DNA of 64,000 bases from Porphyra umbilicalis (lineage: Eukaryota > Rhodophyta > Bangiophyceae > Bangiales > Bangiaceae): NCBI GenBank assembly GCA_002049455.2, contig KV918782.1, positions 1 to 64,000 of the forward strand, in the 5' to 3' direction. Numbering within the stretch: position 1 is the stretch's first letter; each line of letters starts with the position of its first letter. The notes under the pieces are model-generated. The model was not told where the DNA came from. It did no database searches and saw nothing but the letters and a program-made list of their open reading frames with translations. The translations under genes were made by a program, and so were the position numbers. This document shows positions 4,179 to 23,990 of this stretch, piece by piece.

Positions 4179-4235
4179 CGCCGAGAGGTTCTGGGCGCCG
4201 CCCGTGGCAGGTGATCGGGGGGGGGGGGGGTGGTG

Positions 4236-4288
4236 GGCGGGGCCTCGGGCGGGGCCTCGGGCGGGGCCTCGGGCGGGGCCTCGGTGCG
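4236..4288. repeat. 12-bp GC-box-like tandem repeat
   Basis: The unit GGGCGGGGCCTC is repeated about four and a half times. It lies 60-110 bp upstream of the ATAD2-like start codon, inside its probable 5' leader. GC boxes can bind Sp1-like factors, but function here is only a guess. Confidence 0.7.
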
Positions 4289-4715
4289 CCTGCCACCCCG
4301 AGCGCCGGCACCTCGGCCGGCAGCGGGGGGGGGTGCACGCGGACGCACCCCTGCAGACGACAGCGGGGGGCGCCCAAGGCCGGCGGGGGCGGCCCGCCGG
4401 CCCCCCCTGCCCCGAGCGGGCGCGGCCGCGCCACCCACGCCGCGCCGACCAGCGTCGGGGGGGAGGGCACCCCATCGCCCGCGCGGTGGCCGCCGGCACC
4501 GTCATCTCGCGTGGCGCGCGGCTTGCCGACCATGTTGACAGGCAAGGGAGCCGCCGCCACACACAAAGGGGGGGGGGGGGGGGGGGGGGGGCGCCCGACC
4601 GACGCGGCCACGGGGGCAGTTGGTGTGTGTGGGGTGGGAGAAGAGGGTGTCACTATCTGGACCACCGAGCTGCCCGTCCCGTCTCTGCCCCGAGCCGCGG
4701 CGCCCACCAACCTTT

Positions 4716-5623: not shown

Positions 5624-6385
5624 CTATCGGTCAAACGCCTGCGGGGAGCTCCGTCCCGTGCCGGCGCGCGCCTTTTGCACAAACTTCCACTCAAAGTCGG
5701 ACCCATAGTCGACCAGCAGCTCCTCCCCAAACGCAACCGCCCGCGTCGTCACGAGGGTGAGGGTGTCGTCCCGGGTCAGGTCCTCCACCGCACGGATGTC
5801 CGTGTACCACTTCAACACCGCGTTGGGCCCCTCGGCCGCGGGTGATGGGGACCGCGCGGGACCCGGCGCGGGCGCGACCGGTGCCAGAGCACCCGCAGCA
5901 CTCGCATCACGCGCATCATGCGCTGGCGCGGCCGCTCCCCCCCCCCCCCCCCCCCCCCCCTGACACGCGCCGGCCGCCGCGTCGGCGGCGACACGCGCCG
6001 CGCCGATGACCGGTCCCCAGTGGTTGACAAACCCGAGCGCCGACCCGCCCAGGGGCACAACCCAAAACGGCTTGGCCCAGTGAGACATCTTGTGCCCGTT
6101 CAAGCGGCAGAGCTGGGGCGTCACACGCGCGTTTCCGCGCATCGGCCCGTAGAAGCGGTATTTGACTTGCTCGTACTGCGCCATCTGACAGTTGTGCCAC
6201 ACGACCGGACCCCACAAGGACCCGACGGTGTGTTGAACGCCAAAGCCATCCGGCCGGCTGACAAAGCAGCCGAGGCCCGCATCCGGTCCGGTCGAGACGC
6301 CAAGGCGGACGCCACAGGCAGACGCGTCGGCGGCGCGGAGAGACGCGATCGGAAAATCCTCAAAAAGAAACCGAAGGGCACGCCG
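5624..6385 (-). CDS. SET-domain segment in frame with the methyltransferase upstream
   Basis: Translation shows GPDAGLGCFVS near the start (N-SET, compare GLGxFA), then LGGSALGFVNHWGP, a roughly 60-residue Gly/Ala/Pro-rich insert, PNAVLKWYTDI, and finally GEELLVDYGSDFEW. SET histone-lysine methyltransferases carry the pairs NH...PN and ELxxDYG, which form the S-adenosylmethionine and substrate pseudoknot. Here both halves are present, but the insert splits the first motif and includes a homopolymer at 5939-5960. There is no ATG before the domain. The frame begins immediately after a TGA (6386-6388) that closes the methyltransferase frame, in the same phase. Either the SET domain is the C-terminus of that protein, reached past the TGA, or it is a relic. 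It ends with TAG at 5624. Confidence 0.62.
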   Translation of the reverse strand, partial: RRALRFLFEDFPIASLRAADASACGVRLGVSTGPDAGLGCFVSRPDGFGVQHTVGSLWGPVVWHNCQMAQYEQVKYRFYGPMRGNARVTPQLCRLNGHKMSHWAKPFWVVPLGGSALGFVNHWGPVIGAARVAADAAAGACQGGGGGGGGAAAPAHDARDASAAGALAPVAPAPGPARSPSPAAEGPNAVLKWYTDIRAVEDLTRDDTLTLVTTRAVAFGEELLVDYGSDFEWKFVQKARAGTGRSSPQAFDR

Positions 6386-8944
6386 TCACCTTCGCGGATG
6401 CGTGGCGTACATCGCCCCAATCTCCACGGGTGTCACCACGTCCGCGGCAGCAAGCGGGACGTACGCGGCCACGACGTGGTCCACAATGTGCCTCGGCAGC
6501 ACCGTGTGTGGCACCATCTCCGTCGCGGGCGGCTGCAAAATGCTGCGCCGCGCAGGCCGCATCGCCGGTGGCCGATCGTCGGAGAGCACGTTGCGGTCGA
6601 GCGCACCGACGGTGGTCGTGACAGCCGATGCCAGCGCCGCATCTCGCTTGCAAATTGCTCGACCGTCGTGCGACGAGGACAAAAAGCGGACAAAAGACGA
6701 GAAGACGCGTCGCTTGCCAAACCGCTCCGCCACGGGGTCCTTGTCACAGCTCCAACTGTGGCGCCGCGTCTGGATGCACGCGTCCGCCGTTGAAAAGGAG
6801 CCCGCAAATAGGTTCAACACGACGTCGCTCGGTTTGGTGAAGTGTCTAATGAGCTCGCACAAGAGGCTGACAGGCTTCTGCTCGGGGCGCAGGATGCCGT
6901 CGCCCGCATAGACGACCTCGCGACCCGTCGGCTGCGTCACATGGTTGTACACGTTGCTGTTGCCGGGCATACTCGACACGTCACTGTCAAACACGCGGTA
7001 GTTGACCATGCGGTGGCCGGCCAGCCCCGCGCCGCGCCGCGTCGCGTGTACGGCCACAAACATGTGCTTGGCGAGGGTGGTGGTGCTTCGCGGCGCGCCC
7101 GTCGGCGTCGAACAAATAGAGGCCACGGGGCCCGCGTCCACCGCCCACAGCGACTCGTTTGTCTTCGGGGCCTTGTACGATTCGAGCGTCTTGGACAGGT
7201 CCGAAACCTGGGAGAAGGAACACATGATGATGGCGTGGCCCCCCTGCCGAACACTGGACGTCGCAAAGTCACACAGCACCTCCCGGTCCGCGTCGTTAAA
7301 GACGTCGCGGTCACAGTTATCATTGCCAGCGACACGCCGCGTTTTCCACGGAATGTCCGTCAGCAGCAGCTGGACGCGCAACTGGAGGCGGGATACGGGG
7401 AAATTCCAAAAGTCAAGCTCGTACGTGCGGCACTCCTCTGCCAGAGCGCGGTCGACCACCTTGAAGGCGTCACGCTCCGCGTCGGTCAAGCCGGCCACCA
7501 GCCCGACAGATGTGTCTGTCGGTAGGGCCCCTTCCGGCGCGACGGGGGCACGCACAGGGTCGGCGGGGTCCGCCTCGACCAGCAAACGCAGCTGCTTCAG
7601 GTAGCTCGAAAGGACGGGCGCCAGCCCATCCACCAGCGTGCGCCGGGGTCGAAGGAAGGACGCGCCGCTCAAACTCCCAATGTCGGCGCGCATGGACAGC
7701 GGGTTGTAGGTGTTTGACCAAACGTCCTTGCCGTTGGAAACGGCAACGACGTGCTCGACAAAGCGAACGGCCGCTGTCCGAAACGCCCGATCCGCCAGCG
7801 GCAAAGCGTCCAGCCGCCGCAACGCAGCGGCGTCGACCACGGCAGGGTCCACCGAAGGCCGTTGCCCATGCCACAGGCGATGGCGACTCGCCAGGGGGGC
7901 GAACCCCAACCGGGCGTCGGTGATCGGCTCAAAACACACCTTCGTGGCGGACCACAACAGGTAGGGCGACAGCATGGTTTCACTGTCGGGGAACCCACAC
8001 AAGATTGCAAGCACGTCCCACGATCGCACGCACGCCATGATCTGCGCCTTGACGCGAAAGCCCCGCAGCTCGCGGTCGACGGTGCCGACAGGGTCGGGCG
8101 TCCGTCGCGGACGCGGTGTCGCACCGGCCACGATCGCCTTGGCCGCCTTGGTCTTTAGGGTGCCCCCCTGTCGAGCGACGCGGGAAGCACGACCGGGGGT
8201 GTTGCGCGCCGCCGGCGCCCCGTCCGCTGCACCCGCGCGCTGGGACGGGGCCTTGCCCGCACGCTTGGGCGTCGGCAGTGAGGGCCTCGTGTCATTGACG
8301 TCTTCGAGAAACGGGTGCGCCGCCGTCACGTCGCGCGCGAGTTGCGTAAACCACCAGAGCCGCTCCCACGGGGTCGCGTAGGGACCACACGGTGCCACAC
8401 GGCGCGCCGTGGTGGTCTTGTCGATCACACAGTACGCGGCAGTCTCGCACAGCGCCTGGGAGCGATCCACCGCCGCAGCGACAACAGCAGCGGAGAGCTT
8501 TGACGGGGCACCCGCAGCTGGAGCGGTCATCGCCGCGGCGCCGGCCGATGCAGCACGTCCCTCGTCTGCAACGTTTCGGGGCGCACTCGATGCCGCGCCG
8601 GCGGCCACCTTGTCCGTACCCGTGGCAACTCTGTCGACACCGCGCGCGGCCGCGGCACCGCGACTGACGCGGCGCACCTTTGTTGGCGGCGCGCCGTCGC
8701 CACCGTCGGGCGCACCGTCCACGGCGACCGACGCCACCCCGTCTCGATCGACGTCCATTGGCGCGTCAGAGCTGCCCTCGGCGGCGTCTGCGTCCTCCTC
8801 CTCGTCGGACGGGGATGGGGATGGCCCCTCACCCGAGCGCTGCCCTCGTATGGTGCGCTTGGGCGGTCCTTTCGCGAGCTTTGGGAGAGAGGGGCCCCCA
8901 AAGTTGCGCCACTGATGGGACACCAGGACAGGGCAGCGGAGCAT
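6386..8944 (-). CDS. Amino-DNA-methyltransferase (N6-adenine/N4-cytosine class) domain protein
   Basis: An 852-residue frame starts at ATG 8944. Residues 1-280 are basic and acidic low-complexity sequence (SPSDEEEDADA; several basic patches), as expected for a nuclear linker. A conserved-looking region follows (LWWFTQLARDV, FRVKAQIMACVRSWDVLAI). At about residue 530, LLLTDIPWK matches motif IV of amino-methyltransferases (D/N/S-P-P-Y/F/W, here DIPW). At about 711, KPVSLLCELIRHFTKP then VVLNLFAGSFSTADAC matches the target-recognition helix and motif I (FxGxG, here FAGSFST). The order IV then I is that of the beta-class N6_N4_Mtase fold. The second Pro of motif IV is missing, so activity is uncertain. 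Upstream a ParB-like frame and downstream a SET frame are in the same phase. Confidence 0.72.
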   Translation of the reverse strand: MLRCPVLVSHQWRNFGGPSLPKLAKGPPKRTIRGQRSGEGPSPSPSDEEEDADAAEGSSDAPMDVDRDGVASVAVDGAPDGGDGAPPTKVRRVSRGAAAARGVDRVATGTDKVAAGAASSAPRNVADEGRAASAGAAAMTAPAAGAPSKLSAAVVAAAVDRSQALCETAAYCVIDKTTTARRVAPCGPYATPWERLWWFTQLARDVTAAHPFLEDVNDTRPSLPTPKRAGKAPSQRAGAADGAPAARNTPGRASRVARQGGTLKTKAAKAIVAGATPRPRRTPDPVGTVDRELRGFRVKAQIMACVRSWDVLAILCGFPDSETMLSPYLLWSATKVCFEPITDARLGFAPLASRHRLWHGQRPSVDPAVVDAAALRRLDALPLADRAFRTAAVRFVEHVVAVSNGKDVWSNTYNPLSMRADIGSLSGASFLRPRRTLVDGLAPVLSSYLKQLRLLVEADPADPVRAPVAPEGALPTDTSVGLVAGLTDAERDAFKVVDRALAEECRTYELDFWNFPVSRLQLRVQLLLTDIPWKTRRVAGNDNCDRDVFNDADREVLCDFATSSVRQGGHAIIMCSFSQVSDLSKTLESYKAPKTNESLWAVDAGPVASICSTPTGAPRSTTTLAKHMFVAVHATRRGAGLAGHRMVNYRVFDSDVSSMPGNSNVYNHVTQPTGREVVYAGDGILRPEQKPVSLLCELIRHFTKPSDVVLNLFAGSFSTADACIQTRRHSWSCDKDPVAERFGKRRVFSSFVRFLSSSHDGRAICKRDAALASAVTTTVGALDRNVLSDDRPPAMRPARRSILQPPATEMVPHTVLPRHIVDHVVAAYVPLAAADVVTPVEIGAMYATHPRR

Positions 8945-9145
8945 GCTTCATGCAACCCGGGGCAGGCGGTCCGCCGGGCGGTCCGTAAACCTGACCCGGG
9001 AGCGCCCCCCTGCACTGGCGCCACCGCCACTACTGGCACGTGTGCCAGCCGTGGCCGGTTCCTCATCCGTTTCGGCGGGCCCGTCTGCGTCGACGAGCAC
9101 GTCGGCCTGATCATCGACGCTGCGGCCCAGGAACAGGAACAGCTC

Positions 9146-9994
9146 TCAGCACCGCGTGACGACGGGCGCAGCGCGCGCTTGCCGCGCTGCAGTCAGGTGG
9201 TCAGAAGTCCACGGCTTGATCGCCTGCAGGAGGCGGTACCACGTGTACGTGCGGTTCTTCGATATCCACTTGACGAGCCCCTCCTCCGTCGAGGCCCCGT
9301 CAGCTCTGCCCGCGCTGCGCAGAACCTCCTTGAGAGTCACTTTGCGGACGGGTATGTCGTCTTTCCTAACCAGGTCGTCCCGCACAAAGGTCATTGACAT
9401 GAAGAATTCGACAGACGCCATACGCAGGGTCCGCGCCATGGTCGTGTCCTTAATTGACGCCATGACCACGTGCGTCGCGTCGGTCGGGTTGGCCGTCTTT
9501 GCCTCTGTCGTGGGGGACCCGAGGACCAACCAGGGTACCCGCGTCCAGCCATCGGGGTAGCCCTCTCACGCCAGCTGCCGCTCATCCGCAAGCAGGCGGT
9601 GGTGGCCCTCGACAACGACGCCGTGGCGCTCGCCGCGAATGGCGAGACCTTGGATGGGGTGGGCGGCCAAGTCCTTCAGCGAGTCCGGCTCGATCTCGTC
9701 GACGTGATCCAGCACCACGGACCGACAGCGCGTCCCGTACCGGAAGAAGCCGACTTCAACCCACACTGTTGCGCGCACTGGGAGGGAGTCTGGTTCAACG
9801 TCAAGGGGGCTGCCCGTCACGTCGGTCATCAACGGCTGGGAGGTTGCCGCGGCAGGTGGCAGCGGCTGGACCACCCCCACCGGCAGCGGTTGGACAGCCG
9901 CCACGCCGTCACCACGTCGATGTGCTTGCGCACCCCCGCGTCCCGCCTCTGGCGCGTTGGTGGTCGCACCCCCGGCTGCTGGCGTTGTCCCCAT
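9146..9994 (-). CDS. ParB-like domain frame upstream of the methyltransferase
   Basis: ATG 9994 opens a frame with a Gly/Ala/Pro-rich start, then VWVEVGFFRYGTR, PDSLKDLAAHPIQGLAI and HGVVVEGHHRLLADE. The last matches the GHHR motif of ParB/Srx-type domains (a nuclease or CTPase fold in bacteria). An in-frame TGA at 9566-9568 is followed in the same phase by EGYPDGWTRVPWLVLG, which is what a ParB fold should show next (VPVxVL), and then by a helical region to a second TGA at 9146-9148. Between 9145 and 8949 the frame stays open, with one more TGA at 8948. No TAA or TAG and no frame shift occurs from 9994 to 5624. In phages and integrated elements ParB-like domains are often joined to DNA methyltransferases, which supports a common product here. 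Confidence 0.6.
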
Positions 9995-10095
9995 CGTCAC
10001 TGCCGCGACGCACACACACACCGCGTCCGGTCCGAGCCCGACGCACGTCGGCACCCCTCAACGGGCACACCCCACGCAGCCAGACATACACCTTG

Positions 10096-10104
10096 TATTT
10101 ATAG
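10096..10104 (-). promoter_or_regulatory. TATA box of the ParB-methyltransferase-SET gene
   Basis: On the minus strand, CCTATAAATAC lies about 105 bp upstream of ATG 9994 and just downstream of repeat array A. It is the only good TATA match near this start. Confidence 0.5.
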
Positions 10105-10224
10105 GCGTATCGCAGGGGGCACTGCGTGCGCAATGACGAGCAGTGCTGGTGCGCCAGGCGTACCAGTTGCCCACCGCAGCGAGCACGCCCACAGAGGGTT
10201 TGACGCCGGCGGTATGTTGGTGTT

Positions 10225-10660
10225 GGCGGCTGACCCCCCCTCCCGTGTGTGCGGGGTGCCGTCTGGGCGACCCCCCCCTGAAGGTGCGTGTGCACCACAA
10301 TCCAATGGCAACCCTACGAGAGTTGACTCTGGCAATACTGACAGTTTTGAGGTAGCCCGGGGGGCCACGAAGAAATATTTTGAAACACGTCCCACACCAA
10401 GCACACACGCGGGGGGGGCCCCCCGGCTCCCAGGTAGGTGGTGTGGGCGGCTGACCCCCCCTCCCGTGTGTGCGGGGCGCCGTCTGGGCGACCCCCCCCT
10501 GAAGGTGCGTGTGCACCACAATCCAATGGAAAACCTACGAGAGTTGACTCTGGCAATACGGTCGGTTTTGAGGTAGCCCGGGGGGCCATGAAGAATTATT
10601 TTGAAACGCGTCCCACACCACGCACACATACGCGGGGGGCGCGTATGTTGACAAACCGCC
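10225..10660. repeat. Array A, units 1 and 2 (about 215 bp each)
   Basis: Two units begin GGCTGACCCCCCCTCCCGTG and contain CCACAATCCAATGG, GAGAGTTGACTCTGGC, GGTAGCCCGGGGGGCCA and AATTATTTTGAAAC. The central 90 bp is also found, inverted, in array B (12341-12963). Relative to the minus-strand gene starting at 9994 the core reads in the sense direction, with GTTTTCCATTGGATTGTGG containing a reverse CCAAT. Confidence 0.85.
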
Positions 10661-10805
10661 CTGCGTCGCACTGCACTGCAGTTTCGGCGAATGACCACGA
10701 ATTGAATAAAAGAAATGCTGTACTGGAATTCAATTTGTGCTCGACCAGTCGCCTTTTCTGCGTCTAACCCGCGGCGACAGCACCAGCAGTCGGTCTGGCG
10801 AACCG

Positions 10806-11040
10806 CTATCGTCTTTGGTAGAGCGTCGCGGCGTGCACGCCAAAAACTGCACAAATGTCGACGTGGCTGCCGCCGCCCAAGTACCGCAGCGCCAGAGCCG
10901 TCCGACAAAATGGCGACAACCCGCGAGGAGGAAGACGGGGGCGTAGAATGTCACTAAAGTTGCTGACGGCTTCCGCCGGCATGCGCATAGCACGGTCAAA
11001 GTGAGCGCCGTAGCGGGCCTGTACGTCCTCAATGGTGGAA
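10806..11040 (-). pseudogene. Fragment of a DDE-type transposase (Harbinger-like helix-turn-helix end)
   Basis: Minus-strand translation gives TIEDVQARYGAHF, MRMPAEAVSNFSDILRPRL and LALRYLGGGSHVDICAVFGV, followed within a few codons by a stop. Harbinger-type transposases have this order: a region with R-M-S/P and F...L.P.L, then ALR.LA.GS..D....FG. Only this N-terminal part is present. It sits between array A units 2 and 3, so it may mark an insertion that split the array. Confidence 0.5.
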
Positions 11041-11377
11041 ATAATGTTTATGAAAGGGGGTCGAGAAGCAAAGAGTCCCCGCCGACTTTACAAGGCCGCG
11101 GACACGTCAATGACGTGCGCCGCACGGCCGTCTGCCAAGCAGGTGGGTACATGACGGTGCAGGCGGCTGCAAAGAAGGAGGGCGTCCGCGGCCATGCCGT
11201 CGACGGACAAGAAAGGCACAGTAGTACTGATGATCAAGTGCTTGCGCCTAGAATCTATTTGTTCACGGTTGCTCCTCAGTACATGATTCTCTCTTTCTTG
11301 TGCAGACCGGTTCTTTCGCAGCTCGTGCACCCCGGTTCTGCACTCCCCGCGAACTGCGATTGCATCTGCGAGCGGGC

Positions 11378-11775
11378 CTGACAGCCCCTCCCGTGTGTGC
11401 TGGGCGCCGTCAGGGCGACCCCCCCCTGAAGGTGCGTGTGCACCACAATCCAATGGAAAACCTACGAGAGTTGACTCTGGCAATACGGACGGTTTTGGGG
11501 TAGCCCGGGGGGCCACGAAGAATTATTTTGAAACACGTCCCACACCACGCACACATACGCGGGGGGGGCCCCCCCGGCACCCAGGAAGGTGATGTGGGCG
11601 GCTGACCCCCCCTCCCGTGTGCGCATGGGGCCTTCTGGACGAGCCCCCCCTGAAGGTGCGTGTGCTCCACAATCCAATGGAATACCTACGAGAGTTGACT
11701 CTGGCAATATGGACTGTTTTGGGGTAGCCCGGGGGGCCACGAAGAAATATTTTTGATCATAATCCCACACATTGT
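11378..11775. repeat. Array A, units 3 and 4
   Basis: Two further units of the family seen at 10225-10660 start at about 11380 and 11601. They carry the same CCACAATCCAATGGAA, GAGAGTTGACTCTGGC and GGGGTAGCCCGGGGGGCC blocks. The last unit ends in a diverged tail near 11775. Confidence 0.85.
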
Positions 11776-12340
11776 CGACACAGTGGGGGGCTTCCTCGGG
11801 CCCTACCTGTTGAACTGATGGGCAGTTGTTGTTCAGTGTCTTTGCTGTCAAATGACAAACCCCTCACAACAACCCCCATGTTCTCCTGTCTCAAGACCCT
11901 CTCTGGAAAGCCTGAAAGCGGAGCATGGCACAAGTGACGGACAGTTCTATTTAGTCTTATCAAGGACGCATTCTTCTTGCAAGGTGGTCACTGCCTGGTG
12001 TCCATTCTGCCAACGCTAAAATCAGGCTCTGATGAAGCTCAAATAAGGCTTTCTCTCATATGGCCTGGAAACGCAATCATACTGGTGTGTCTGGGGCACG
12101 CCCTGCAAGCTTTCATCTCACACAGTCGCCCAGTTCGTGCATTGGTAAGTGGACTGCGCTGAGACAACATCACTCCTTGAGCAGCCGAGGCAGGCAATAT
12201 GGTTTCAGAGTGGCAGCCCATCTCTTGGAGGGTGCTCTGGGCGTGCCCAGGGCACGCCCAGGACACACATGCAGGGCACGCCGAAGACAGGCCGACACAC
12301 AGGGGTCCCCCCAGGACGCACCCCCTGTAGCCACGTCGGG
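11776..12340. other. Unique spacer between arrays A and B
   Basis: About 565 bp of ordinary composition lie between the two oppositely oriented arrays. It includes several short GGGCACGCCC-type repeats near 12240-12280. No gene is recognised. Confidence 0.5.
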
Positions 12341-12963
12341 GTGGTTGAATTCGCAGATTATCATTTTGGTAGCCCACCAGGCTACCATAAAACCAACGGT
12401 ATTCCTAGAGTCAACTCTGGCAGGTTTTCCATTGGATTGTGGTACTGCGACCCATCTGGGGGGGGGTGCTCTGAGGGGGCCTCACCGGCGTCCTGGGGGG
12501 GTCTGGGGTCACCACCGACGCGCAGGGGTGCTCCGAGGCCGCCTTCCGGCAGCCTCGTCGGGGTGGTTGATTTCGCAGATTATCATTTTGGTATCCCACC
12601 AGGCTACCATAAAACCAACGGTATTGCTAAAGTCAACTCTGGCAGGTTTTCCATTGGATTGTGGTACTGCGACCCATCTGGGGGGGGTGCTCTGAGGGGG
12701 CCTCACCGGCGTCCTGGGGGGGTCTGGGGAGGCCGCCCCCCGGTAGCCTTGTCTGGGTGGTTGATTTAGCAGATTATCATTTTGGTAGCCCACCAGGCTA
12801 CCATAAAACCAACGGTATTCCTAGAGTCAACTCTGGCAGGTTTTCCATTGGATTGTGGTACTGCGACCCATCTGGGGGGGGTGCTCTGAGGGGGGCCCAC
12901 CGGCGTCCTGGGGGGGTCTGGGGTCACCACCGACGCGCGGGGGTGCTCCGAGGCCACCCCCTG
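12341..12963. repeat. Array B, three units of about 200 bp, inverted relative to array A
   Basis: Units begin at about 12341, 12562 and 12758 with GTGGTTGATTT and GCAGATTATCATTTTGGTAGC. They continue with AGAGTCAACTCTGGCAGG and TTTTCCATTGGATTGTGG. Reverse-complementing array A gives the same order of blocks, so both arrays derive from one element. In B the core reads in the sense direction of the plus-strand gene that follows. Confidence 0.85.
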
Positions 12964-12971
12964 GGACAAAG

Positions 12972-13522
12972 TCACGACGTGGGGGGGTTGCGTACACTGC
13001 TTGAGCGTGGTGTGCCGACCGACGACTGGAGTGCCGCAGGTCTATATAACACCTGGAGCCTATCCGTGCCCGCTCAGTCAGGCTACGGACCGGACCCGCT
13101 GGTGACGCGCAGGGATGTCCCCAGGCCGCACCCGCGGTGGCCGCGTGGGGGAGGGTCGCGACGTGGGGGGGTTGCGTACACTGCTTGAGCGTGGTGTGCC
13201 GACCGAAGACTGGTGTGCCACAGGTCTATATAAGACCTGGACCCTGTGCGTGCCCGCTCAGTCAGGTTACGGACCGGACCCGCTGGTGACGCGCAGGGGT
13301 GTCCCCAGGCCGCACCCGCGGTGGCCGCGTGGGAGAGGGTCGCGACGTGGAGGGGTTGCGTACACTGCTTGAGCGTGGTGTGCCGACCGACCACTGGTGT
13401 GCCACAGGTCTATATAAGACCTGGACCCTGTGCGTGCCCGCTCAGTCAGGTTACGGACCTGACCCCCTGGTGCCGCACCTGTCACACCCTGAGACGCCGT
13501 CGTGTTTCTCAACCCCCCCGCC
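12972..13522 (+). promoter_or_regulatory. Array C: three 184-bp units, each with a TATA box
   Basis: The unit starts GACGTGGGGGGGTTGCG (about 12976, 13160, 13344) and contains CACTGCTTGAGCGTGGTG, then a TATATAA at 13043, 13227 and 13411, exactly 184 bp apart. After each TATA comes ACCTGG and CCCGCTCAGTCAGG. The last TATA is 140 bp upstream of ATG 13551. This looks like a tandemly amplified core promoter serving the ParB/DGQHR-like gene. Confidence 0.8.
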
Positions 13523-13550
13523 CCCTCAACCGTGCGACGCTGAGAGTGTC

Positions 13551-14264
13551 ATGGCGGCGTCTCTGGCTGGCGCGGCCGACGGGTCGGTGCCCCTGCCCCC
13601 CACTGTCTTGCGCGATGTGAAGGTCGGAAGCCTGCGCATTCCGGATCTGATGCCCCGCCGTCAGTCCAGCTCATTGGTTCGTGACATCCTGGCAACCATG
13701 CGGCCATATCGCACACTGCCAGACGCGCATGCACCGATCTTGTGCCTCGACCGTGAGGAGCCGTCCTTCTTCATCCCATGCGACGGCGGTCATCGTGTGA
13801 GCGCGATCCTTCAAGCGCTGCGGGAGGGTATCTTGGGTGCAGAGGACATCATTCGCGCCCTCGTCATTGTCGACCAAGATGAGCAGAGCGTTTCCCTCGG
13901 CGACTCCATGCGCGCCATTCTGGCGATGGAGTACAACGATCAAGGCCACAACATCGCACGCACGACGGCGTACGACATCATCACCACCAACCTCAAGTTC
14001 TTTCGAGCCTGGTCGGCGGAGACTGCCATTGAGCTCAGCATTAGCAGTGCAGTCGAGTATGCCGCTGGGTACACCACCAAGCAGCTGTACGTCTCTTGCA
14101 AGGAGGCGCCGAGGACATTTGCTGCTCGACGTAAGACAGTTGAGACGCTGTTCAAGGCTGTCTTGACCTTTCTGGAGAGCCTCAGGGCGCTACAGTTTCT
14201 GGGGAGGACTCTGGAGGAGGGCCGCTTTGAGCAACCCCTTTCCCACACTACCGCTACAGTCTGA
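13551..14264 (+). CDS. ParB/DGQHR-like protein, N-terminal part
   Basis: ATG 13551 opens a frame with MAASLAGAAD, LRIPDLMPRRQ, APILCLDREEPSFFIPCDGGHRVSAILQAL and then a helical region (ARTTAYDIITTNLKFFRAW). The segment around residue 77, CDGGHRVSAI, matches the DGQHR/ParB signature in which a strand is followed by D-G-x-H-R and a helix. A second ParB-like frame lies at 9146-9994 on the other strand, with the same order of domain then helices. The frame stops at 14264, but the neighbouring frame is already open from 14231 and reads FPHYRYSLTVLGAPSLRKPL. One extra C in the CCCC run near 14235 would make them continuous, so this is probably one gene with 14231-16896. Confidence 0.6.
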   Translation: MAASLAGAADGSVPLPPTVLRDVKVGSLRIPDLMPRRQSSSLVRDILATMRPYRTLPDAHAPILCLDREEPSFFIPCDGGHRVSAILQALREGILGAEDIIRALVIVDQDEQSVSLGDSMRAILAMEYNDQGHNIARTTAYDIITTNLKFFRAWSAETAIELSISSAVEYAAGYTTKQLYVSCKEAPRTFAARRKTVETLFKAVLTFLESLRALQFLGRTLEEGRFEQPLSHTTATV

Positions 14265-16896
14265 CGGTGTTGGGCGCCCCAAGCCTGCGCAAGCCTCTCG
14301 CCCCTGTGTCGTCGGCGGACGAGCGGGACCAAGTTCGCTGCGTGCTGCTGCGCGTGTTTGAGGCGTGGTACGACGTGCACATGGGCATTGATGGCGACAC
14401 GCCTCGACCCTGGGAGGGGGTCGAACACCCCACCCTGACGGTCGCCCTAGCCAAGCGTATTGGCGACTCCTTTGTTCCCTTTGTGCGAGGCATGACGCAA
14501 GCTGCGGTGATCGCCGGGAGATCGCTGGAGGAGGTGTTGGCGCTCCATCCGGGGCCTGCTGCCGATGTGCCGTACCCGTCGGTTGAGGACCGTTTGGTGT
14601 CCACGTTTCGCCACCTCGCTCCCCCGCCGGCATCTGTAGGGGAGGACAGTTTCGGGCTGTTCAAGGCGCAAGAAAATGCCTTGCGCGCCGACCTCGTGGA
14701 CGCGCTCCGGCAGGATTCCGAGCACCCGCCCATTGTGGCGTGGCTCGTCCCTGGTCTGCCAGGCGCCTCCGACGCAGACGCGGCCGACGAAGAGGATGCA
14801 TATGCGTCCGCGCTCGGCCCGGAAATTGAGAAGGCTCTTGCGCACCTTGAAGGCGAGGACTCGCAGAGCTTTGTGAATATTTTTCAAGAGACGTCGTCAG
14901 GGCCACTACCTCTGGTTCGTGTACCAACCGGGAACGAGCTTGCATGTCGTGCTCTCGTGGCTGCCGACCAGCGGCGTTTGGCGGATGCCGCTGGTGGCGA
15001 CGGCCCGCGCGGTACCCCCCGCGTGTCTGACGGTGGCGCCTCTGGTGAAGGTGATGGGGACGGGCCCGCCGGCACCACACCCCGTGCGGCTGACGGTGCG
15101 GCCTCTGGCGACGGTGGTGGGGACGGTGGAGGTGATGACGGCGTCGGCCTGCTCGGGCCGGTCACCGCCGGCACCACACCCCGTGCAGCTGACGCCTCTG
15201 GCGACAGTGGTGCGGACGGTGGGGACTCTGGTGGCGACGGCCCGCCCGTTACCCCCCGTGTGTCTGACGGTGGCGCCTCTGGTGACGGTGATGGGGACGG
15301 GCCCGTCGGCACCACACCCCGTGCGGCTGACGGTGCGGCCTCTGGCGACGGTGGTGGGGACGGTGGAGGTGATGATGGCGTCGGCCTGCTCGGGCCGGTC
15401 ACCGCCGGCACCACACCCCGTGCGGCTGACGCCTCTGGCGACAGTGGTGGGGACGGTGGGGACTCTGGTGGCGACGGCCCGCCCGTTACCCCCTGCAAGT
15501 CTGACGGTGCCGCCTCTGACGACGGTGATGGGGACGGGCTCGCCGGCACCATACCCCGTGCGGCTGACGGTGCGGCCTCTGGCGACGGTGGTGGGGACGG
15601 TGGAGGTGATGACGGCTTCGGCCTGCTCGGGCCGGTCACCGCCGGCACCACACCCCGTGCGGCTGACGCCTCTGGCGACAGTGGTGGGGACGGTGGGGAC
15701 TCTGGTGGCGACGGCCCGCCCGTTACCCCCTGCGTGTCTGACAGTGCCGCCTCTGGCGACGGTGATAGGGACGGGCCCGCCGGCACCACACCCCGTGCGG
15801 CTGACGCCTCTGGCGACAGTGGCGGGGACGGTGGGGACTCTGGTTGCGACAGCCCGCCCGTTACCCGCCGTGTGCCTGACGGTGGTGCCTCTGGCGACAG
15901 TGATGGGGACGGGCCCGCCGGGCCAGGCGGCGCAGACGGCACCCATGGCCGGATGGACGCACACGGCCTGGACCCCACCGGGAACTCTCACGTGGACGAC
16001 CGAGGCGGACGTGCCCGGGCAGGTGACGGTGCGAATGTTGGCGAGCCTCCCACGACACCCGCGACGGCGCTTGCCACGTCGGCCGCGGGGCACGTGACTG
16101 TGCCGCCGGATGGCGCGGCGCCGCCGGCACGCGCTTCTCAACGTGCCCCTGCTCGTGCCACGCCTGGTGCTGCTCAGCGAAAGAGGCGTCCACCAGTGTC
16201 TGGCAAAGGTGCGACTCGGCGCGGGCGGTCTCCCGAGGTTGTCGAAGTCACACCCGGCCGGGCGCGTTCCCCTCTTCGAAACGAACAAGCGGCGCGTGCG
16301 ACCCTCTCGACTCGTGGCAGCCGAGCGACGGATGCCACTCTCCCGACGACACACACGGGAGGTGTGCGGCACCGTCGCCCTCCAGGTGCGAGCGGTGTCT
16401 CTGTGCACGTGTACGCGCACCCCACGGCGAGCGCAGAGGACGCCAACTGGTTTCGCCGCGAGTGGGCCTGTGGTGCCAGCGCGGTTGCGTCCGCTGCCGA
16501 GCGCGGTGGTCCGTCGCTCATGGGTGTGCTGACAACTCCCGCTTTCAGTGTGCTCGTGCCGACGAACCACCGTGCGAGGCTGGCGGTCCGTCGCCCGTTT
16601 TGGCTGACCGTCGACGGGCGCGTCCGGAAGTGGGGCCTGCTGCAGCGGATGCGACCGCTGACTGCCGTTGGCGAGCGCCCGGCGGAGCTCACACACGAAC
16701 GCGTTGAGGGCGGGGTCGCGGCGGCCGCTTTTTTCAGTGCGAGCGCGACCCTGCTGTTCAGTCGAGGGTGGGTCACGCTGGACCACCTCGCAGACATGAC
16801 GACCATGGGGGCCGTCGGTCACGACGTCGCGGCTGCTCTGTGGACGTTGCTGGCTGGCGCGACGGCCAAGTCGGAGATGGACGTCAAGGTGTTGAC
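14231..16896 (+). CDS. Middle part of the ParB/DGQHR-like gene, with acidic tandem repeats
   Basis: The segment up to about 14930 is a mixed helical region (VLLRVFEAWYDVHMG, VGEDSFGLFKAQENALRADLVDAL). From about 15000 to 15930 it consists of a 79-residue tandem repeat rich in Gly, Asp, Ser and Ala, with PRAADGAASGDGGGDGGGDD at its centre. After a basic Arg/Pro/Ala linker (KRRPPVSGKGATRRGRSP), a compact C-terminal region follows (ANWFRREWACGASAV, LAVRRPFWLTVDGRVRKWG, FSRGWVTLDHL). I do not recognise the middle or C-terminal parts. The basic linker and acidic repeats suggest a nuclear protein. Coding is cut at 16896 by a hAT element; it resumes in phase at 17859. Confidence 0.5.
15000..15930 (+). 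repeat. Coding tandem repeat, 237-bp unit
   Basis: The DNA unit beginning GACGGCCCGCCCGTTACC recurs near 15237, 15474, 15711 and 15848. The first three spacings are about 237 bp (79 codons); the last unit is shortened. The frame is preserved throughout, and copies differ by scattered substitutions. Confidence 0.85.
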
Positions 16897-17850
16897 CAGG
16901 GGCTTTTGAATCTGTCACTTTTCATAGAATCTGAATATACTCCAGTTGCGCTGACATGCACTCAGATTTGAGTTTTTGATGATATCATGTATCTGGATTC
17001 GGATCTGACCTCGTCGGTCGGATTCAGGATCAGCATTATATTCGGATATGTTATCGCTCCGATTTCGATTATAATCTGTGTACCTTGAGTGAGTATATTC
17101 CGTCCGAGGTCACTTCTGCGCAAATAGGGATCGACGCACGTACCAACGAGAGGTTGTCCGACGACGCCGCCAACACAGTCTAGCGCCAGCGAACGTACGT
17201 TTTGAGGTGGTCTCAATCTCCTGGGAAACTGGAGTGGTATGGTGTACCTGCACAATTCCAGCGTGCAAACTAAAAGCTACAATCTCGTCGTCGGACACAG
17301 AAATATTTGTGGTGCTGCGGGCAGTGCTCGCCAAGTCACGACGAGTGCTTGTCGGGGTGCAACAGTGGTCGACGCTGGAGGGTGTTGTGACAGCAAAGAG
17401 GCGCAGTTTTTATGCGACGAGAAGCAGGGCGGCAGGGCTGCTCCTCACGCGAAGGGGATAAGATCATGCTGCGGATACCCAAACACCTTCATTTCGTGGT
17501 CCAGGCATCCGGCTCAGGTGTGCCAGACACATTTCTCTCTTAGTTGCGAATCCAGCCCCTATCGCATATCTGGTAGCCAACATTGGCATCTTGTTCGCCT
17601 GCGGCGTCGCAAGGGCTGCCCCAGACTGTTGTTGTAGCGCACAGCCGATTCCGGGAGTCGGATAAACTCAGGAAAAGTATCTCCACTCTGATTACATTAT
17701 ATCCTGACCTCAGAGATTTATTAAGGCACATTATAATCGTCGGTGCATGGATAGAGTACATTAAGAACACGCAGCTACAGCATGAATATGGATATATCCG
17801 AGTATACTGTGCGGATATATCTAGCTCAATTTTATCCACCTCAGCCCCTG
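16897..17850. mobile_element. Non-autonomous hAT element (954 bp) inside the ParB/DGQHR-like gene
   Basis: The element starts CAGGGGCTTTTGAATC and its right end, reverse-complemented, starts CAGGGGCTGAGGTGG, giving an 8-bp terminal inverted repeat CAGGGGCT. It is flanked by a perfect 8-bp direct repeat GTGTTGAC at 16889-16896 and 17851-17858. CAGGG ends with an 8-bp target duplication are diagnostic of hAT elements. The interior is much more AT-rich than its surroundings and has no transposase frame. Taking out the element and one target copy leaves the host reading frame in phase. Confidence 0.88.
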
Positions 17851-17858
17851 GTGTTGAC

Positions 17859-18903
17859 CGCCGCTTCTCGATCGGCGTCGGACCTCTTTGCCACCTTGCA
17901 CTACAGCCGCCGTGTTGCAGACATGGACCGGCCTGCCGCCGCCAAGGTGGTCCTCCTGATGGCGTGCATCTTTCATCACTTGACGGCGGCGTTCCGTGCC
18001 GCACACGAGCAGGAGGACGCTTCACGCGTGGTCGAAGAACGCCGCGTCAAGGCCGCGTGTGGTCACGTGCGAGTGACGGCCCCTGACGCGGTTCGCAGTC
18101 CTTTCTTCCACTATGGGGAGCCGGACCCGATCGTGGCGCCAGAGTTTTAGACCGTACGAGCAGACGGCAACTTTGCGGCGCTCGTCACGGCGACCAACGC
18201 ACATGTCATTGAGTGGGGGCCGTCGTCTACACCTGCGGTACTGCCCCCCTTCTCCGTCACGCTCATCCTCCAGGACCTCCGCCACGCGTACGCCAGTCAG
18301 GAGGTCGTGGCGCGCGTCGCGGTCATGTACTCGGGGGTCGAAGCCGACGGCGTGGTCACCATGGTCTTGCGGCGCACGCATCTCAACCTACCAGACGCGC
18401 CACCGCTTCGAGGCGGAGCCTGCGCTGTGTACGAGCTGCACCTGGCACAGGGAGGCATTCGTGGTTATCGGGTTGCGGACGTGGTCCGCGGCTCGCGGCG
18501 TTTTCCGGGCATGACGACTGCCATGGAGGCGCTGACAGCGGCGGACCAGGCGCACGTCAGCCTGCGGGCGTTTGACCCTGGGGAGTTGGAAGCGACCACC
18601 TCCCGCGTCGTGCCCTCCCCCAAGCCGGCGAGGCAGACGCTGCGTGCCCACACGGCGTTGGCTGGGATGACCGCACCGCCCCGCGACGCGACATTGTCGA
18701 GGATGGTCCGGCTACTCCCATCCGAAGCGCAGCCGTCGTCCGACTCGGACGGGCAACGTGCGGCGAGCTCCAAGGATGCGGATTACGAGGCCGGGGGCTC
18801 CCCCTCGGGGTCCTCCTCCAGCACCTTCTCATCAGACGACTCGGAGGGCTCCACATTTGGGTCGAGCACAGAGGGCAGTTTCACCGACTCGTCGACGGCC
18901 TGA
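17859..18903 (+). CDS. C-terminal part of the ParB/DGQHR-like gene
   Basis: The frame continues in phase from 16896 with AASRSASDLFATLHYSRR, AAAKVVLLMACIFHHLTAAF and PIVAPEF. A single in-frame TAG at 18148-18150 follows, and then the same frame runs on with TVRADGNFAALVTATNAHV, LRRTHLNLPDAPP and VYELHLAQGGIRGYRVADVV. It ends in a Ser/Asp/Gly-rich acidic tail (SSSTFSSDDSEGSTF). The alternating hydrophobic pattern between 18150 and 18560 looks like a beta-rich domain, which I cannot name. The stop could be a CAG-to-TAG change or a true end. With the hAT insertion it suggests a dead or dying copy, unless the element is spliced out. Confidence 0.5.
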
Positions 18904-19448
18904 CGCATACAATATCGGCAGTGTGCGCTTGTGTGTTCGTGGCCTGTTCTTGTGACCCCACCCCACCGTTGCTGCTCGTGTGTCAGTGGTGCTCCACTGT
19001 TTGCACTTCGCGTGTGGTGCCAAAAGACTGTCGATTTTAGGGTGGGTAGCAACGTTGTCCGACGGTCCTCACCCCAATGGAACACCGGCCACCGTTGGCC
19101 CTGCCAATATGCTTTTCACAATTGCAGCCCCAGTCCCTTGTGTCCTGCCTGTGAATCCGGCACGTGGCGCGGTCGGTCGCCGGCGGTGCCTATAAGAAAG
19201 GCTCGACAAAGCACGGCGGTGGTGGCCGTGCACGTTCCGTTGTCGCCGGCACCCGCGGACGGTGCACTCCCGCGACGCGTGGTGCAGAGGAGACGCCCGC
19301 CGCAGCACTTTGGTGCCCGAGCGTCGAGTGCGCGTGCCGGCCCGTCGTTGCCGTTGGTTGCCGCCACGCCGCGCGATCCTGATAAGATCGTTCTTTGGCC
19401 ACGTCACTCCGTGCCGCGCTCTATCATCAATGGTGTCCTCCTCGGCCG
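18904..19448. other. Intergenic, with a TATA-like box on the plus strand
   Basis: A plus-strand CCTATAAGAAAGG lies at about 19189-19201, followed by an open frame that runs into the Copia LTR at 19449. This could be the 5' end of a gene truncated by that element, but I recognise no protein. Otherwise nothing is seen. Confidence 0.3.
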
Positions 19449-19866
19449 TGTTGAATCGCAGTGGGGATAGGGGTTGGGGGACCACGGTGAAGTGGTTGAG
19501 TGGCTTGAGCTTGTGTGTGTGTGTGCGAACGTGCTTTGTTGGTTATCCTAAGGATCGCCCGCCTCTCCCAACCGAGAGCACCTCTCAAATAGTCCCCACC
19601 GGCCCAAGTGCTCCCCCCTCTCGCGCCCACACCGACGCCCACGCCCTCGCACCAAATCAAATCACTCACCAAATCAAAAGCCACTAGAGCAAAGCGAAGA
19701 TCAAATCCACGACATGCCAAAAGTAACGCCCCAAGATGACCCAACACAAATGTGTGCAACTTGACCACGTCTTGAAAATGTACCATGTGGGGTACCATAA
19801 GGGTCACCGACCATCGTCCAACCGCTAACCGCCAGTGGAGTCGGCGACGAGCATCACAGTCCAACA
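19449..19866 (-). repeat. Copia 3' LTR
   Basis: 418 bp, TGTTGAAT to AGTCCAACA, with a GT microsatellite near 19513-19525. It is the downstream LTR in the element's own orientation. Confidence 0.9.
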
Positions 19867-19901
19867 CTCCTCCTTGCTTGTTGCCGCGGCGGTTCTTGTT
19901 T

Positions 19902-22900
19902 TCAGCAGAGTCCCATGGCCTCGACATGCTTGTCGTGCTTGGTCTTGCCGAGCTCCTTCGTCATCGGGTCCGCCACCATGTCGTCCGTTGCACAATGCTC
20001 CAGTGTCACCTTGTCCGTTACGATGACCTCGCGCACAAAGTGGTAGCGAATGTCGATGTGCTTAGTGCGCTTGTGCTCGACGGGGTTCTTGGAGAAGTCA
20101 ATGCACCCGCTGTTGTCGACCTTGATGTTGATCGGCCCGCCCGAGATCGCTGTCCGCAGCCCTTGAGTTGCCACGCTTTGCACGAGCTTGTTGAGCCAAA
20201 CAGCTTCCTTGCTGGCCTCACATAGAGCCATGTACTCGGCTTCCATCGTCGACAGCGCCACCGTCTTTTGCAACTTAGAACCCCAGCTGACGGCTGCTCC
20301 GCCAAAGATGAAGGTGAAGCCCGTCGTAGAACGTCGCGTCTCGTGGTCACCCGCCCAGTCCGCATCACTAAAGCCTTGTACAACACAGGAAGAGTTCTTG
20401 CCGAAGACCAGCCCCTTGTCCATCGAACCCTTGACGTACCGTAGAACGCGCTTGATCGCCGCCCAATGCTCCTTTCCGTAGCACGAAACAAACCGACTCA
20501 GCTTCCCGATAGCGAAGGCGAGGTCAGGACGTGTCCCGACCATCAGGTACATTAGACTGCCGACAGCTTCGCGGTAGGGCAGCGCGTCGTCGCTCTCGTC
20601 GGCCTTGACCAGCTGCAGGCCCACCTCCAGCGGCGTTCCGATCGGGTTGCACTCCGCCATCCCGAACTTCTCCAGCACTTGCGCCGTGTACTTGCCCTGC
20701 GACAGCTTGAGGGTGCCCAACGCCTTGTCACGCCTAATCTCTAGCCCGAGGATGACCTTCGCCTCGCCCAGGTCCTTCATCTCAAAACGCTGGTGCAGAG
20801 CGTCCTCAATCTTGTAGATCGCCGCCAGGCTTGATGCCACCAACAGGAGATCGTTGACGTTCACCAGGACGATGATGATTTTGCCGTCATCCATGAGGAG
20901 GTAGAGGCATGCATCCGGGTCAATGTTGTCAAACCCCTGCGACTTGAGAAAGTCGTCGAGCTTGGCGTACCACATCTTGGGAGCTTGCTTCAGCCCATAC
21001 AGCGCTTGGAGGAGACGACACACCTTGTCAGGATACGTCGGATTGACATAGCCGTCTGGCTGCTCCATGTAGACCTTCTCGTCAAGGTCGCCGTTGAGGA
21101 ATGCCGTCTTGACGTCCATCTGATGTAGCTCCCACCCGTTCGCCGCCGTCATTGCCAGGATGCATCGGATGGTAGTGAACTTGGCCACCGGCGCGAACGT
21201 CTCGTTCAAGTCGAGCCCCTTGATCTGCCGGTTCCCCATGAAGCACAGGCGCGCCTTGTGCCGCGTCGTGTTGTTCCCGTTCTTGTCAGCCTCGTTCTTG
21301 ACCTTGTACACCCACTTGCCCTTCAACACGCGTCGACTGGCCGGGCGATCCGTCAAGCGCCAAGTCTTGTTCTTGCGGATGGCCTCCATGTCCTCGTCCA
21401 TGGCAATCTTCCACTTAGCCGATTCTTGCCCTTGAACGGCTTGCACGTACGTCGTGGGCGCCTCGTGAGCAACCAGGCTCACCGGGCGCCAGTACTTGAC
21501 AGGGGGTCGCCGCGCTCTGCCGCTCCGACGCAGCGTGTCTTTAGAGCCGCCACAACCTTGGTTGTCGTCCGCGGACTTGTCAGATCCATCGTCTTGCTTG
21601 TCATCCTTGTCGTCATTGTCAGCATCCACGTCTTCGCCGTCGCTTGCAGAGCGCAAACCCGTCTCGACTCCGACGTTTTCGTCTCCGGGAAGCTCCTCTG
21701 CAACTTCTGCCACCTCGCTCACGTTCGTCTCGGCGAACACGACGCTTCGTGCCTTGACGACCTTGCCGTCGTCGAGGATGACCTTGTACGCCTTGCTGCC
21801 GTCGGGATAGCCTAAGAAGACGCCCTTCGCCGCCTTGTCGCCAAACTTGCCGTCGATGTGACTCTCGTGCAGCACCACCCAGCATGTCGACCCAAACACC
21901 CGCATGTGGCTTACGTCGGGATTATTTCCGGTCCACAGCTCAAAAGGCGTCTTGCCGACGGGAAGTACCCGGCTGGTGACGCGGTTCTTGATGTAGACCG
22001 CCGTCTTGATGGCATCCGCCCAAAGATCTTGATCGACGTCCTTGTCTCGCATCATGGTGCGAGCCATCTCCACGAGAACTCGGTTGAGCCGCTCAGCAAC
22101 CCCGTTCTGCTGCGGTGTGTCGGGCACCGTGGTCTGGTGCGTCGTGCCGTTCTCATCGTAAAGAGCCTTGAATGCATTCGACACATACTCGCCGCCATTG
22201 TCGGAGCGTAGGATCTTGATCTTGGTTCCCGTGTGCAGCTGGGCCTTCGTCAGCCACTTCTTGTACTCAGAGAGCAGATCGCTCTTCTTCTGCAGGAAGA
22301 CCACGTCTGTCCAGCGGAAAAAGTCGTCAGTGAAGGTGCCAAACTAGAGCGCACCGCCCCGCGACGGCTCCGACATTGGCCCGCCCAGGTCCGAGTGCAA
22401 GAGCTGCAGGCGCTTGCTGACTCGACCTCCTCCCGCACTAGGCATAGGCGTCATAGCCGCCTTCCCATACACGCACGGCTCGCAGACGTCCTTGACCGCC
22501 ATGGAAGAGCACTTGAGTCCATCGATGTCCTTGTTCTTGATCATCCGCTTAACGCCAGCCACGTTGACGTGCCCAAGGCGCTCATGCCAGAGCTGATGAG
22601 AGGCCACCGCAGCAATATCCAACAGTAAGGCCATGTCCAGGTGGTAGAGCCCACTCTTCCGCGTGCCGCACGGAGCGACCTTGTCGCTAATCTTGATGAT
22701 CGTCTTACCGCCCTTGAATGACACTTCCGCCCCACGCTCCTCCATCATGCCGACCGACATGAGGTTGAATCCCATTGTAGGAACATGGAGTACCTTCTCC
22801 AACTTGATCTTGCGCGTCTTGCCGTGAACGATGACATTGAGCACAACGGTTCCGACGCCCGCCGTGGCTACGGACCCCTTGTCGCCCATGGTGACGCTGC

Positions 22901-23950
22901 GTCCCGTGGTCGTCTGGTAGTCGTCGAAGCATTCGCGCATCCAGCACATGTGTGCAGATGCCGCAGAATCGACAAGCCACGACTTGGAGATGTCATCGGT
23001 GTCAGCCGCATTGCCCACCAGACAGATGGCGTCGTCGCTGTCGCTACCGTCGTCAGCCGCAATCGCGGCCACCTTGTCCTGTCTCTGCTTCTTGGCCTTG
23101 AGCTCTGGGCAATCGTGAGAGATATGCCCAAACTTATGGCAGTAGTAACACTCGATCTTGGAGAGGTCACCACGGCGGCCTTGACCTCGATAGTTGGCGC
23201 CGACGAGTGCCATGTCGCCAATGCGCTTTGTCGACGGTGACTTGTCCGCCTGCCGCCGCTCCTCCTGAAGCAAGCGGCTCTTGACAAAGTCGAGGCTCAG
23301 CTCGTCCTCGCCCTTGGCGTCGAGAGCCACCAGCAGGTTCTCGTACTTGGACGTCAGCCCGTTGAGGACGCTCATGGCAACGTCCATCTCCGTCACCTCG
23401 CCGCCCATGGCCTGGAGGTTCTCCCCGAGGTTGCGCACGCGGTTGATGTAGCCCAGCATGCCCTCGCCGACGGTCATTTCGACTGTGTAGAACTCGCGTC
23501 GCGCCTTCATATTGTTCATTCAACTCTTGCGCTGGAAGACGCCTTGCAACGTCGACCACATTTCCGCCGTCGTCTTGCGGCCCGACGCGTGCTCGAGCTG
23601 CTCAGATCCAAGGGCGAGCTCGATGATGGCGCTCGCCTTCTTGTCTCGACGCTTCCACTCCGCTAACTCGCGGGCATCCGCGTTCGTCGGCTTGCCGTCA
23701 TCGTCAAGCATATCGTCCAGGTCGCAAGGGCGCGAGGACCATCTCAATGCGCTGACGCCACTCGTGGAAGTTCGTCTCCGTCAACTTGTCGATCTTGATG
23801 CCGCCCATGCCGGCAGCGCCTCCGTCCATGAAGTCGTCTTGTCGTAGCGCCCGACCTTGCCGAGCCGTGCGCCTTGACCGTCACGTCCTTGAACCACCTT
23901 GACCTCGTCTTCTTCGCGCTTGCCGCGACCGCCGCGACACCAGCTGGCAC
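19902..23950 (-). pseudogene. Copia gag-pol coding relic
   Basis: In element order (right to left): gag from about 23830 down, a CCHC knuckle (CYYCHKFGHISHDC) near 23150, protease (WLVDSAASAHMC) near 22960, the integrase zinc and core region at about 22600-21900, reverse transcriptase around 21400-20700, and RNase H around 20270-20050 (TMEAEYMALCEA). Copia elements place integrase before reverse transcriptase, as here. It is a fossil with a few breaks. Confidence 0.88.
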
Positions 23951-23990
23951 ACCTAGCTCTTGTTACAGCCCCGGCTCTGGGCCCACAACC

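Follow-up and report, generated by a model that had tools for sequence, protein, structure and literature searches.

Several described transposons stand close to the locus reported here, among them the Helitron2-type elements that carry Fanzor genes. In the accessible part of their description, the 5'-ATIR lies 0-2 bp from its end and the 3'-ATIR 20-30 bp from the other end, upstream of a hairpin, and a 5' hairpin and 5' T are also given as terminal features (Bao and Jurka, PMC3627910). The same part of the source states that full-length Chlamydomonas copies are inserted after T-rich sites without duplication, and describes CRe-1, 2 and 3 as non-autonomous for RepHel (PMC3627910). The present element resembles these carriers in its ATIRs, 3' hairpin, 5' T, Fanzor gene, non-autonomous character and, as described for full-length carriers, insertion after T without duplication; it differs in its length of about 33 kb and in at least six further genes, whereas that portion of the source describes no carrier in which a methyltransferase, SET, AAA or protease gene accompanies Fanzor (PMC3627910). 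Another example is the methyltransferase-bearing Mariner elements, which are likewise DNA transposons with a methyltransferase, or a Fanzor instead, beside other enzymes, but which have a Mariner transposase, TIRs and three genes, a methyltransferase that is not joined to SET, and never Fanzor and methyltransferase together. The enzyme carried by fungal DNA transposons encoding TET/JBP likewise targets DNA marks, but it is an eraser and not a writer, and neither SET nor Fanzor appears in the accessible description (PMC12730594). In SETMAR, a lysine methyltransferase domain is likewise joined to transposon coding sequence; it differs as a primate fusion with a Mariner transposase, with no DNA methyltransferase in the portion of the description available (PMC9062482).

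Outside transposons, the methyltransferase core considered below resembles that of phage beta-class methylases (PHROG 67, PHROG 498), of which the two top-ranked proteins examined are stand-alone enzymes of about 240 and 260 amino acids without SET. The N4CMT of bdelloid rotifers is reportedly a host gene, whereas the methyltransferase-SET protein described here (MTase-SET) is cargo of an amplified transposon and is fused to SET. N4CMT is, like it, a bacterial amino-methyltransferase in a eukaryote, according to the accessible part of its description (PMC8885841). Among the literature matches listed, no element of the present kind has been described.

The stretch analysed, hereafter the window, comprises 64,000 nucleotides of Porphyra umbilicalis DNA at the start of contig C22, and the genome searched comprises 83.8 Mb in 665 contigs. 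It is probable, in our judgement, that the locus is the decayed remnant of part of a giant DNA transposon with several genes, for which rolling-circle movement, Fanzor-aided re-copying and self-marking by MTase-SET are proposed. Its features are collected in Table 1.

Table 1. Features of the window, with positions counted from its first nucleotide.
Feature	Position	Strand	Evidence or detail
AAA-ATPase gene B, 3' part, cut off by insertion	1..406	-	97% identical to C272
Insertion without counterpart in the C272, C60 and C445 copies	407..2955		Sequence comparison
AAA-ATPase gene B, remainder	2956..4674	-	Pfam AAA 3.4e-25 in frame 2797-3984
MTase-SET gene, pseudogene in window	5624..9994	-	TGA at 9566, 9146, 8948, 6386
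N-terminal GHHR region, ParB-like by motif only	9374..9835	-	GHHR at 9607-9596
Beta-class N6/N4 methyltransferase core	6734..7357	-	DIPW 7357-7346, FAGSFST 6808-6788, Pfam match 6886-6734
Divergent SET domain (NH...PN, ELLVDYG)	5624..6300, left limit approximate	-	Interrupted by a G-rich low-complexity stretch
Shared control region	9995..13550		Core repeats and TATA boxes
DGGHR gene, first part	13551..16897	+	DGGHR 13782-13796; frame change near 14230-14264
TIR element inside DGGHR gene	16898..17849		AGGGGCT...AGCCCCT, 9-bp duplication GTGTTGACC
DGGHR gene, second part	17850..18903	+	
Ulp1/C48-type protease gene, 5' remnant	19196..19448	+	97% to C272; C48 E=6.6e-5 in C272
Ty1/copia retrotransposon	19449..24408	-	LTRs 19449-19867 and 23991-24408, 89.5% identical

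The window copy is a dead, decayed fragment, with four in-frame TGA codons, a frameshift, and TIR and copia insertions. The initial annotation had placed DIPW and FAGSFST in one minus-strand frame, and this frame is indeed continuous but for the four TGA codons, with both motifs present. At the corresponding sites the C363 paralogue reads TGG three times and GGA once. A reassignment of TGA to tryptophan was rejected, and nonsense mutation is the simpler explanation, because one of the four codons is GGA in C363 and the copia frames (19902-22343 and 22344-23519) contain no TGA. Domestication, which had been proposed as one possible fate, is unlikely for this copy because it is a pseudogenised fragment. 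Homology between the window and the copy on contig C272 stops exactly where the copia element begins, and no end of the giant element was found within the window at up to four mismatches. A 20-kb DNA search for relatives, which scored 1 of 2087 candidates, carried little information. The insertion that splits the AAA gene is GC-rich and contains a 201-bp tandem repeat, and G+C reaches 74.6% over positions 1-2000. The TIR element, of 0.95 kb, has related pieces at 72-78% identity in C445.

The amino-methyltransferase assignment is borne out by the N6_N4_Mtase profile (PF01555), which matches the window's minus frame with E=1.1e-9 and 39 bits against a cut-off of 26.7, and matches protein P0001 with 52 bits, above the curated cut-off; PHROG 67 also matches P0001 at residues 963-1192 (E=3.5e-17). 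The catalytic motif of this family is (D/S)PP(Y/F/W). The window has DIPW in its place, while DPP is kept in ten aligned family members. For the SET domain the outcome was divided, since the window's own region falls below the PF00856 cut-off (14.0 against 22.4 bits, E 0.071), whereas the relative P0012 passes it over the full profile (24.3 against 22.4 bits, 4.2e-5). All four SET-region sequences scanned match SET and no other family, each below threshold (best E 0.014). When a ten-row family profile was compared with the PDB, all 20 matches at E≤0.1 were DNA methyltransferases or modification subunits, or SET/PR-domain proteins, two of the 20 carrying only the name 'methyltransferase'. The analysis thus supports the earlier proposal that one gene joins a DNA methyltransferase of prokaryotic type to a SET domain.

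The ParB-like domain assigned to the same gene found no support in profile searches. The GHHR motif is conserved as GHxR in a paralogue that is 31% identical; a genome search with ParB_N (PF02195) came back empty at E≤10, although the same profile was positive in 11 of 14 control genomes, and the GHHR region found no match among PHROGs and no ParB in the PDB. Comparison of the GHxR and DGxHR regions as profiles returned a probability of 3%, and structure prediction of the GHHR region, with TGA read as tryptophan, gave an unusable model (mean pLDDT 35.4). As for a ParB part in phage methylases, the two that were examined are too short to contain one.

Long open MTase-SET frames are found in C5 (1463 aa) and C82 (1495 aa), the former departing from the SET reading frame near its end and the latter continuing through SET. 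Both are members of a second subfamily, which has the motifs DPPY and DLFMGTGTT and is 34% identical to the window methyltransferase piece (P0004). A search with P0005, which had been identified with P0001 as query, returned the query itself and a further seven proteins with the same architecture; these measure 1311 to 1551 aa and come from the sets jgi, lgn and ena. The MTase-SET protein had no match in viral_contigs or genome_contigs. All seven relatives scanned (P0005 and P0007-P0012, with P0013 left out) pass the N6_N4_Mtase cut-off; for SET, P0012 lies above the cut-off as noted above, P0011 reaches 16.9 against 22.4 bits, and five have no match at E≤1. Three features are invariant across the ten-row alignment, namely DPP, F-x-G-T and the asparagine of SET. 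The GHxR region at the N-terminus of P0001 has no counterpart in the relatives, unless their genes have been called from too late a start.

In the DPPY clade, dN/dS of the methyltransferase gene is 0.38-0.47 in the eight pairs whose dS reaches about 0.2 or higher, pairs which are not independent and in which C62 and C40 are truncated frames; the gene therefore seems constrained in at least one active lineage. Where dS is very low, the values of this clade are spread between 0.43 and 1.30, and the window clade gives 0.38 to 1.16 at small dS. In the window clade the invariant DPP is replaced by DIPW (DFSR in C363) and motif I is changed to FAGSFST, which suggests that DNA-methylating activity may have been weakened or lost there.

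The plus-strand gene has the DGGHR motif and the divergent orientation first reported for it, while its likeness to ParB stays below threshold. Its best score against the ParB-like PHROG 1033 is 0.017 (three of four members) and against DndB 0.19 (two of four), the top PHROG being the unnamed 19019 (0.0025, one member), so that the protein may be called weakly ParB/DndB-like at the level of sequence profiles. A search for relatives of this gene found no homologue, and its predicted structure was unusable (mean pLDDT 37.7). The divergent layout recurs elsewhere in the genome. The DGGHR protein has 48 genome matches, although many of these are upstream repeats or belong, as separate pieces, to a single copy; the methyltransferase profile has 21. 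When all 21 were paired with 17 of the 48 (one per copy), 14 methyltransferase matches shared a contig with a DGGHR match, and for 12 of these 14 a divergent DGGHR partner lay 4-25 kb away. One such pair is C25:357780 with C25:351634, and two methyltransferase matches in C5 have a convergent DGGHR partner only.

Between the two window genes, a 33-base core (≤6 mismatches) is repeated on the minus strand at 10295, 10516, 11443 and 11667, upstream of the methyltransferase gene, and on the plus strand at 12410, 12632 and 12826, upstream of the DGGHR gene. Every repeat in the window is oriented with the transcription of its gene, and none occurred in one shuffled window. TATA boxes precede both genes, at 10103 on the minus strand and at 13043, 13227 and 13411 on the plus strand. 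The C272 copy has four core repeats before the methyltransferase gene, four before the DGGHR gene and six before an LRR gene, with one in the opposite direction between the AAA genes. These shared repeats point to a possible coordination of expression.

The initial annotation described a two-gene locus that might belong to an unknown mobile element; the latter suggestion fits, and the former proved too narrow. As judged by sequence comparison, the window gene pair is part of a putative element of about 33 kb with dozens of copies and at least seven genes. The C272 copy, the only one read end to end (50 kb of its contig was read, the other intervals resting on end pairing), spans 33.3 kb from left end TTAGCGAAGCTTC to right end AGCTTCGCTCCTCACCTCTTCCAGAGGTGACTACTGG. 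Its main aligned blocks are 97.7-99.8% identical to those of C60, of which about 28 kb of a 48.5-kb interval was read, and the two diverge sharply at both ends. A 38-base right-end pattern (≤3 mismatches) has 62 genome matches, with 0 for the reversed control, and the left end has at least 41 (40 of 172 candidates scored). When 40 of the 41 left ends and all 62 right ends were paired by position and strand with the nearest in the same orientation, 14 intervals of 14-84 kb resulted, including C272, the longer ones containing extra copies or insertions (for example C60 and C25). Within these intervals lie 11 of the 21 methyltransferase matches, and 15 of the 21 have a correctly oriented left end upstream. 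The right flank of the C141 insertion, whose empty site was searched for and not found, recurs at C274. The two may be one insertion seen twice, through a duplicated contig or one from the second haplotype, in which case copies may have been overcounted.

Besides a coiled-coil-like frame, C272 encodes two AAA ATPases (2e-41 and 2.9e-31, the latter being gene B), an LRR protein (9.1e-9), an MTase-SET gene whose N-terminal part is deleted, a DGGHR gene in two frames and an Ulp1/C48 peptidase (6.6e-5, 23.3 bits against a cut-off of 20.7), for which PDB matches were weak and mixed and included Ulp2 and SENP7 at E 0.4-0.8. Large DNA viruses are known to carry AAA ATPases, Ulp1-type proteases and SET genes, a likeness that raises the question whether such a virus, whole or in fragments, has become endogenous here. 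Fanzor genes, too, are known from such viruses in the accessible part of the source (PMC3627910). This origin is nevertheless very improbable, as no viral hallmark was found among the subset of C272 frames scanned, viral_contigs contains no MTase-SET relative, and the element has fixed ends with a target between T and T at dozens of sites. A segmental duplication of a host gene cluster, in which MTase-SET would serve the host, would agree with the full-length genes and with the constraint on the methyltransferase gene in one clade. We give this reading scarcely any weight, given the precise common ends with differing flanks, the sharpness of the ends already contradicting it, and the position of the C272 ends between ordinary host-like genes, with glutaredoxin-like and RRM genes on one side and PAP2, EVE-domain and kinase genes on the other (assigned by eye, without profiles).

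The gene at the right end of C272 consists of two frames with zinc knuckles, the second of which contains GWDPG, TSQTCAEC and RDTNAARN. Its protein scores just below the Pfam cut-off for the TNB zinc ribbon (1.5e-5, 25.5 against 26.3 bits), and an OrfB/TNB zinc ribbon followed by RD, as in Fanzor/TnpB, is present; the gene is here called Fanzor-like. In the accessible description of Fanzor/TnpB proteins, the catalytic D lies 125-275 residues before the TS/zinc finger (PMC3627910); in the C272 protein GWDPG is at 35 and TSQTC at 538, which puts the RuvC-like aspartate 503 residues before the zinc finger, a spacing outside that range which a large low-complexity insert may explain. Comparison of this protein with the PDB gave no TnpB match. 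The zinc-ribbon profile (PF07282) has 32 genome matches over cut-off, seven of them only with neighbours in frame; 23 of the 32 have a right end on their own strand no more than 1.2 kb away, and nine are not at a listed right end. Those without a listed right end, in C50, C71, C39, C438 and C88:256398, may represent other Fanzor families.

The element ends in turn agree with most of the Helitron2 description. A 9-bp ATIR is formed by AGCGAAGCT at positions 3-11 and AGCTTCGCT, which ends 28 bp from the 3' end; this placement is as described for Helitron2, and an ATIR of this length was equalled in 10 of 20000 mononucleotide shuffles. The 3' end folds into a terminal hairpin (CACCTCT-TCC-AGAGGTG) and closes with CTGG-3', as in Helitron2, while for a 5' hairpin using the ATIR only a 3-bp stem (AGC/GCT) is predicted. 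As in Helitron2, insertion is between T and T: all 20 left junctions have a T immediately before the end, which may be the element's or the target's (with A ahead of it in 17), and a T follows the right end in all 19 readable junctions of 20, the twentieth, C82, reading CTGAG. No consistent target duplication was seen by eye in 11 readable junction pairs, C8 sharing TCAT and C33 sharing TAT. The Helitron N-terminal profile for RepHel (PF14214) has 28 matches in the genome and none within the 14 paired intervals, so the element looks non-autonomous for RepHel. Two RepHel copies share the 3' grammar (hairpin, CTAG, T) in other sequence, ending in GCCCACGGGCACTAG before the T. Because RepHel is absent from the paired intervals and the RepHel copies end in other sequence, the element is here labelled Helitron2-like and not an autonomous Helitron2. 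At L105 (C195:102504-105503), the flank past the 3' end of a RepHel Helitron resembles, by eye, the left part of the giant element, and the Helitron seems to be inserted into or beside giant-element-like sequence.

TnpB near the right end and right-end hairpins are features of IS605-type elements. The Fanzor-like stop lies about 45 bp from the C272 right end, a hairpin is present there, and RepHel is missing from the paired intervals, all of which would suit an element with its own unrecognised transposase, in which Fanzor and an unknown gene (DGxHR, coiled coil) would serve an IS605/IS607-like route and the Helitron2-like ends would be convergent. We regard such a route as unlikely but worth weighing, since the ATIR positions and the T-T target agree with the published Helitron2 description as far as it is accessible (PMC3627910), and no serine-recombinase or Y1 match was found among the subset of C272 frames scanned.

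In the favoured reading, a giant Helitron2-like transposon, the element would move by rolling-circle transposition with RepHel supplied in trans, which we infer because none was found inside it. Fanzor, guided by RNA from the right end, would promote re-copying by cutting target sites that are empty. For relatives, the accessible parts of two sources propose both movement by rolling circle in trans and re-copying aided by Fanzor (PMC10432273, PMC3627910), and by analogy both may operate here. MTase-SET would place two marks on the chromatin of the element itself, a base mark, probably N6-methyladenine as judged from DPPY/F, and a mark on histone lysine; these marks might keep the repeat-driven genes expressed, or spare them from the element's own nuclease. 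Such self-directed marking of DNA and histones is the likeliest role of MTase-SET that we infer. More tentatively, and with somewhat more doubt than assurance, the copies may represent a class of giant Fanzor-bearing Helitron2-like transposons with their own dual epigenetic writer (one protein methylating DNA and histones) and coordinately controlled accessory genes (shared promoter repeats, AAA ATPases, a SUMO-type protease), which manage their own chromatin state in the host. Helitrons are described as acquiring full-length host genes only exceptionally, in the accessible part of the source (PMC6431247); in the element copies compared here full-length genes recur, and two diverged subfamilies both have the methyltransferase slot. 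Confirmation would make this a transposon with an RNA-guided nuclease in which a single polypeptide marks both DNA bases and histones, and it would become testable whether mobile elements set their own chromatin state, as opposed to only suffering host silencing. MTase-SET itself is an added protein family, present in several sequence sets and open to assay.

The second methyltransferase subfamily, about one third identical to that of the window, is located at C5:450148-534608, C8:258748-311169, C265:91669 and C33:241184. The left ends upstream of it are 98-99% like that of C60, and thus the ends look homogenised and the cargo old. Genome-wide, the SET profile has 85 matches, the window's own SET not being among them; many lie in open frames of 1000-1400 aa, and most are off the contigs of this element and may represent another multi-copy SET-bearing family.
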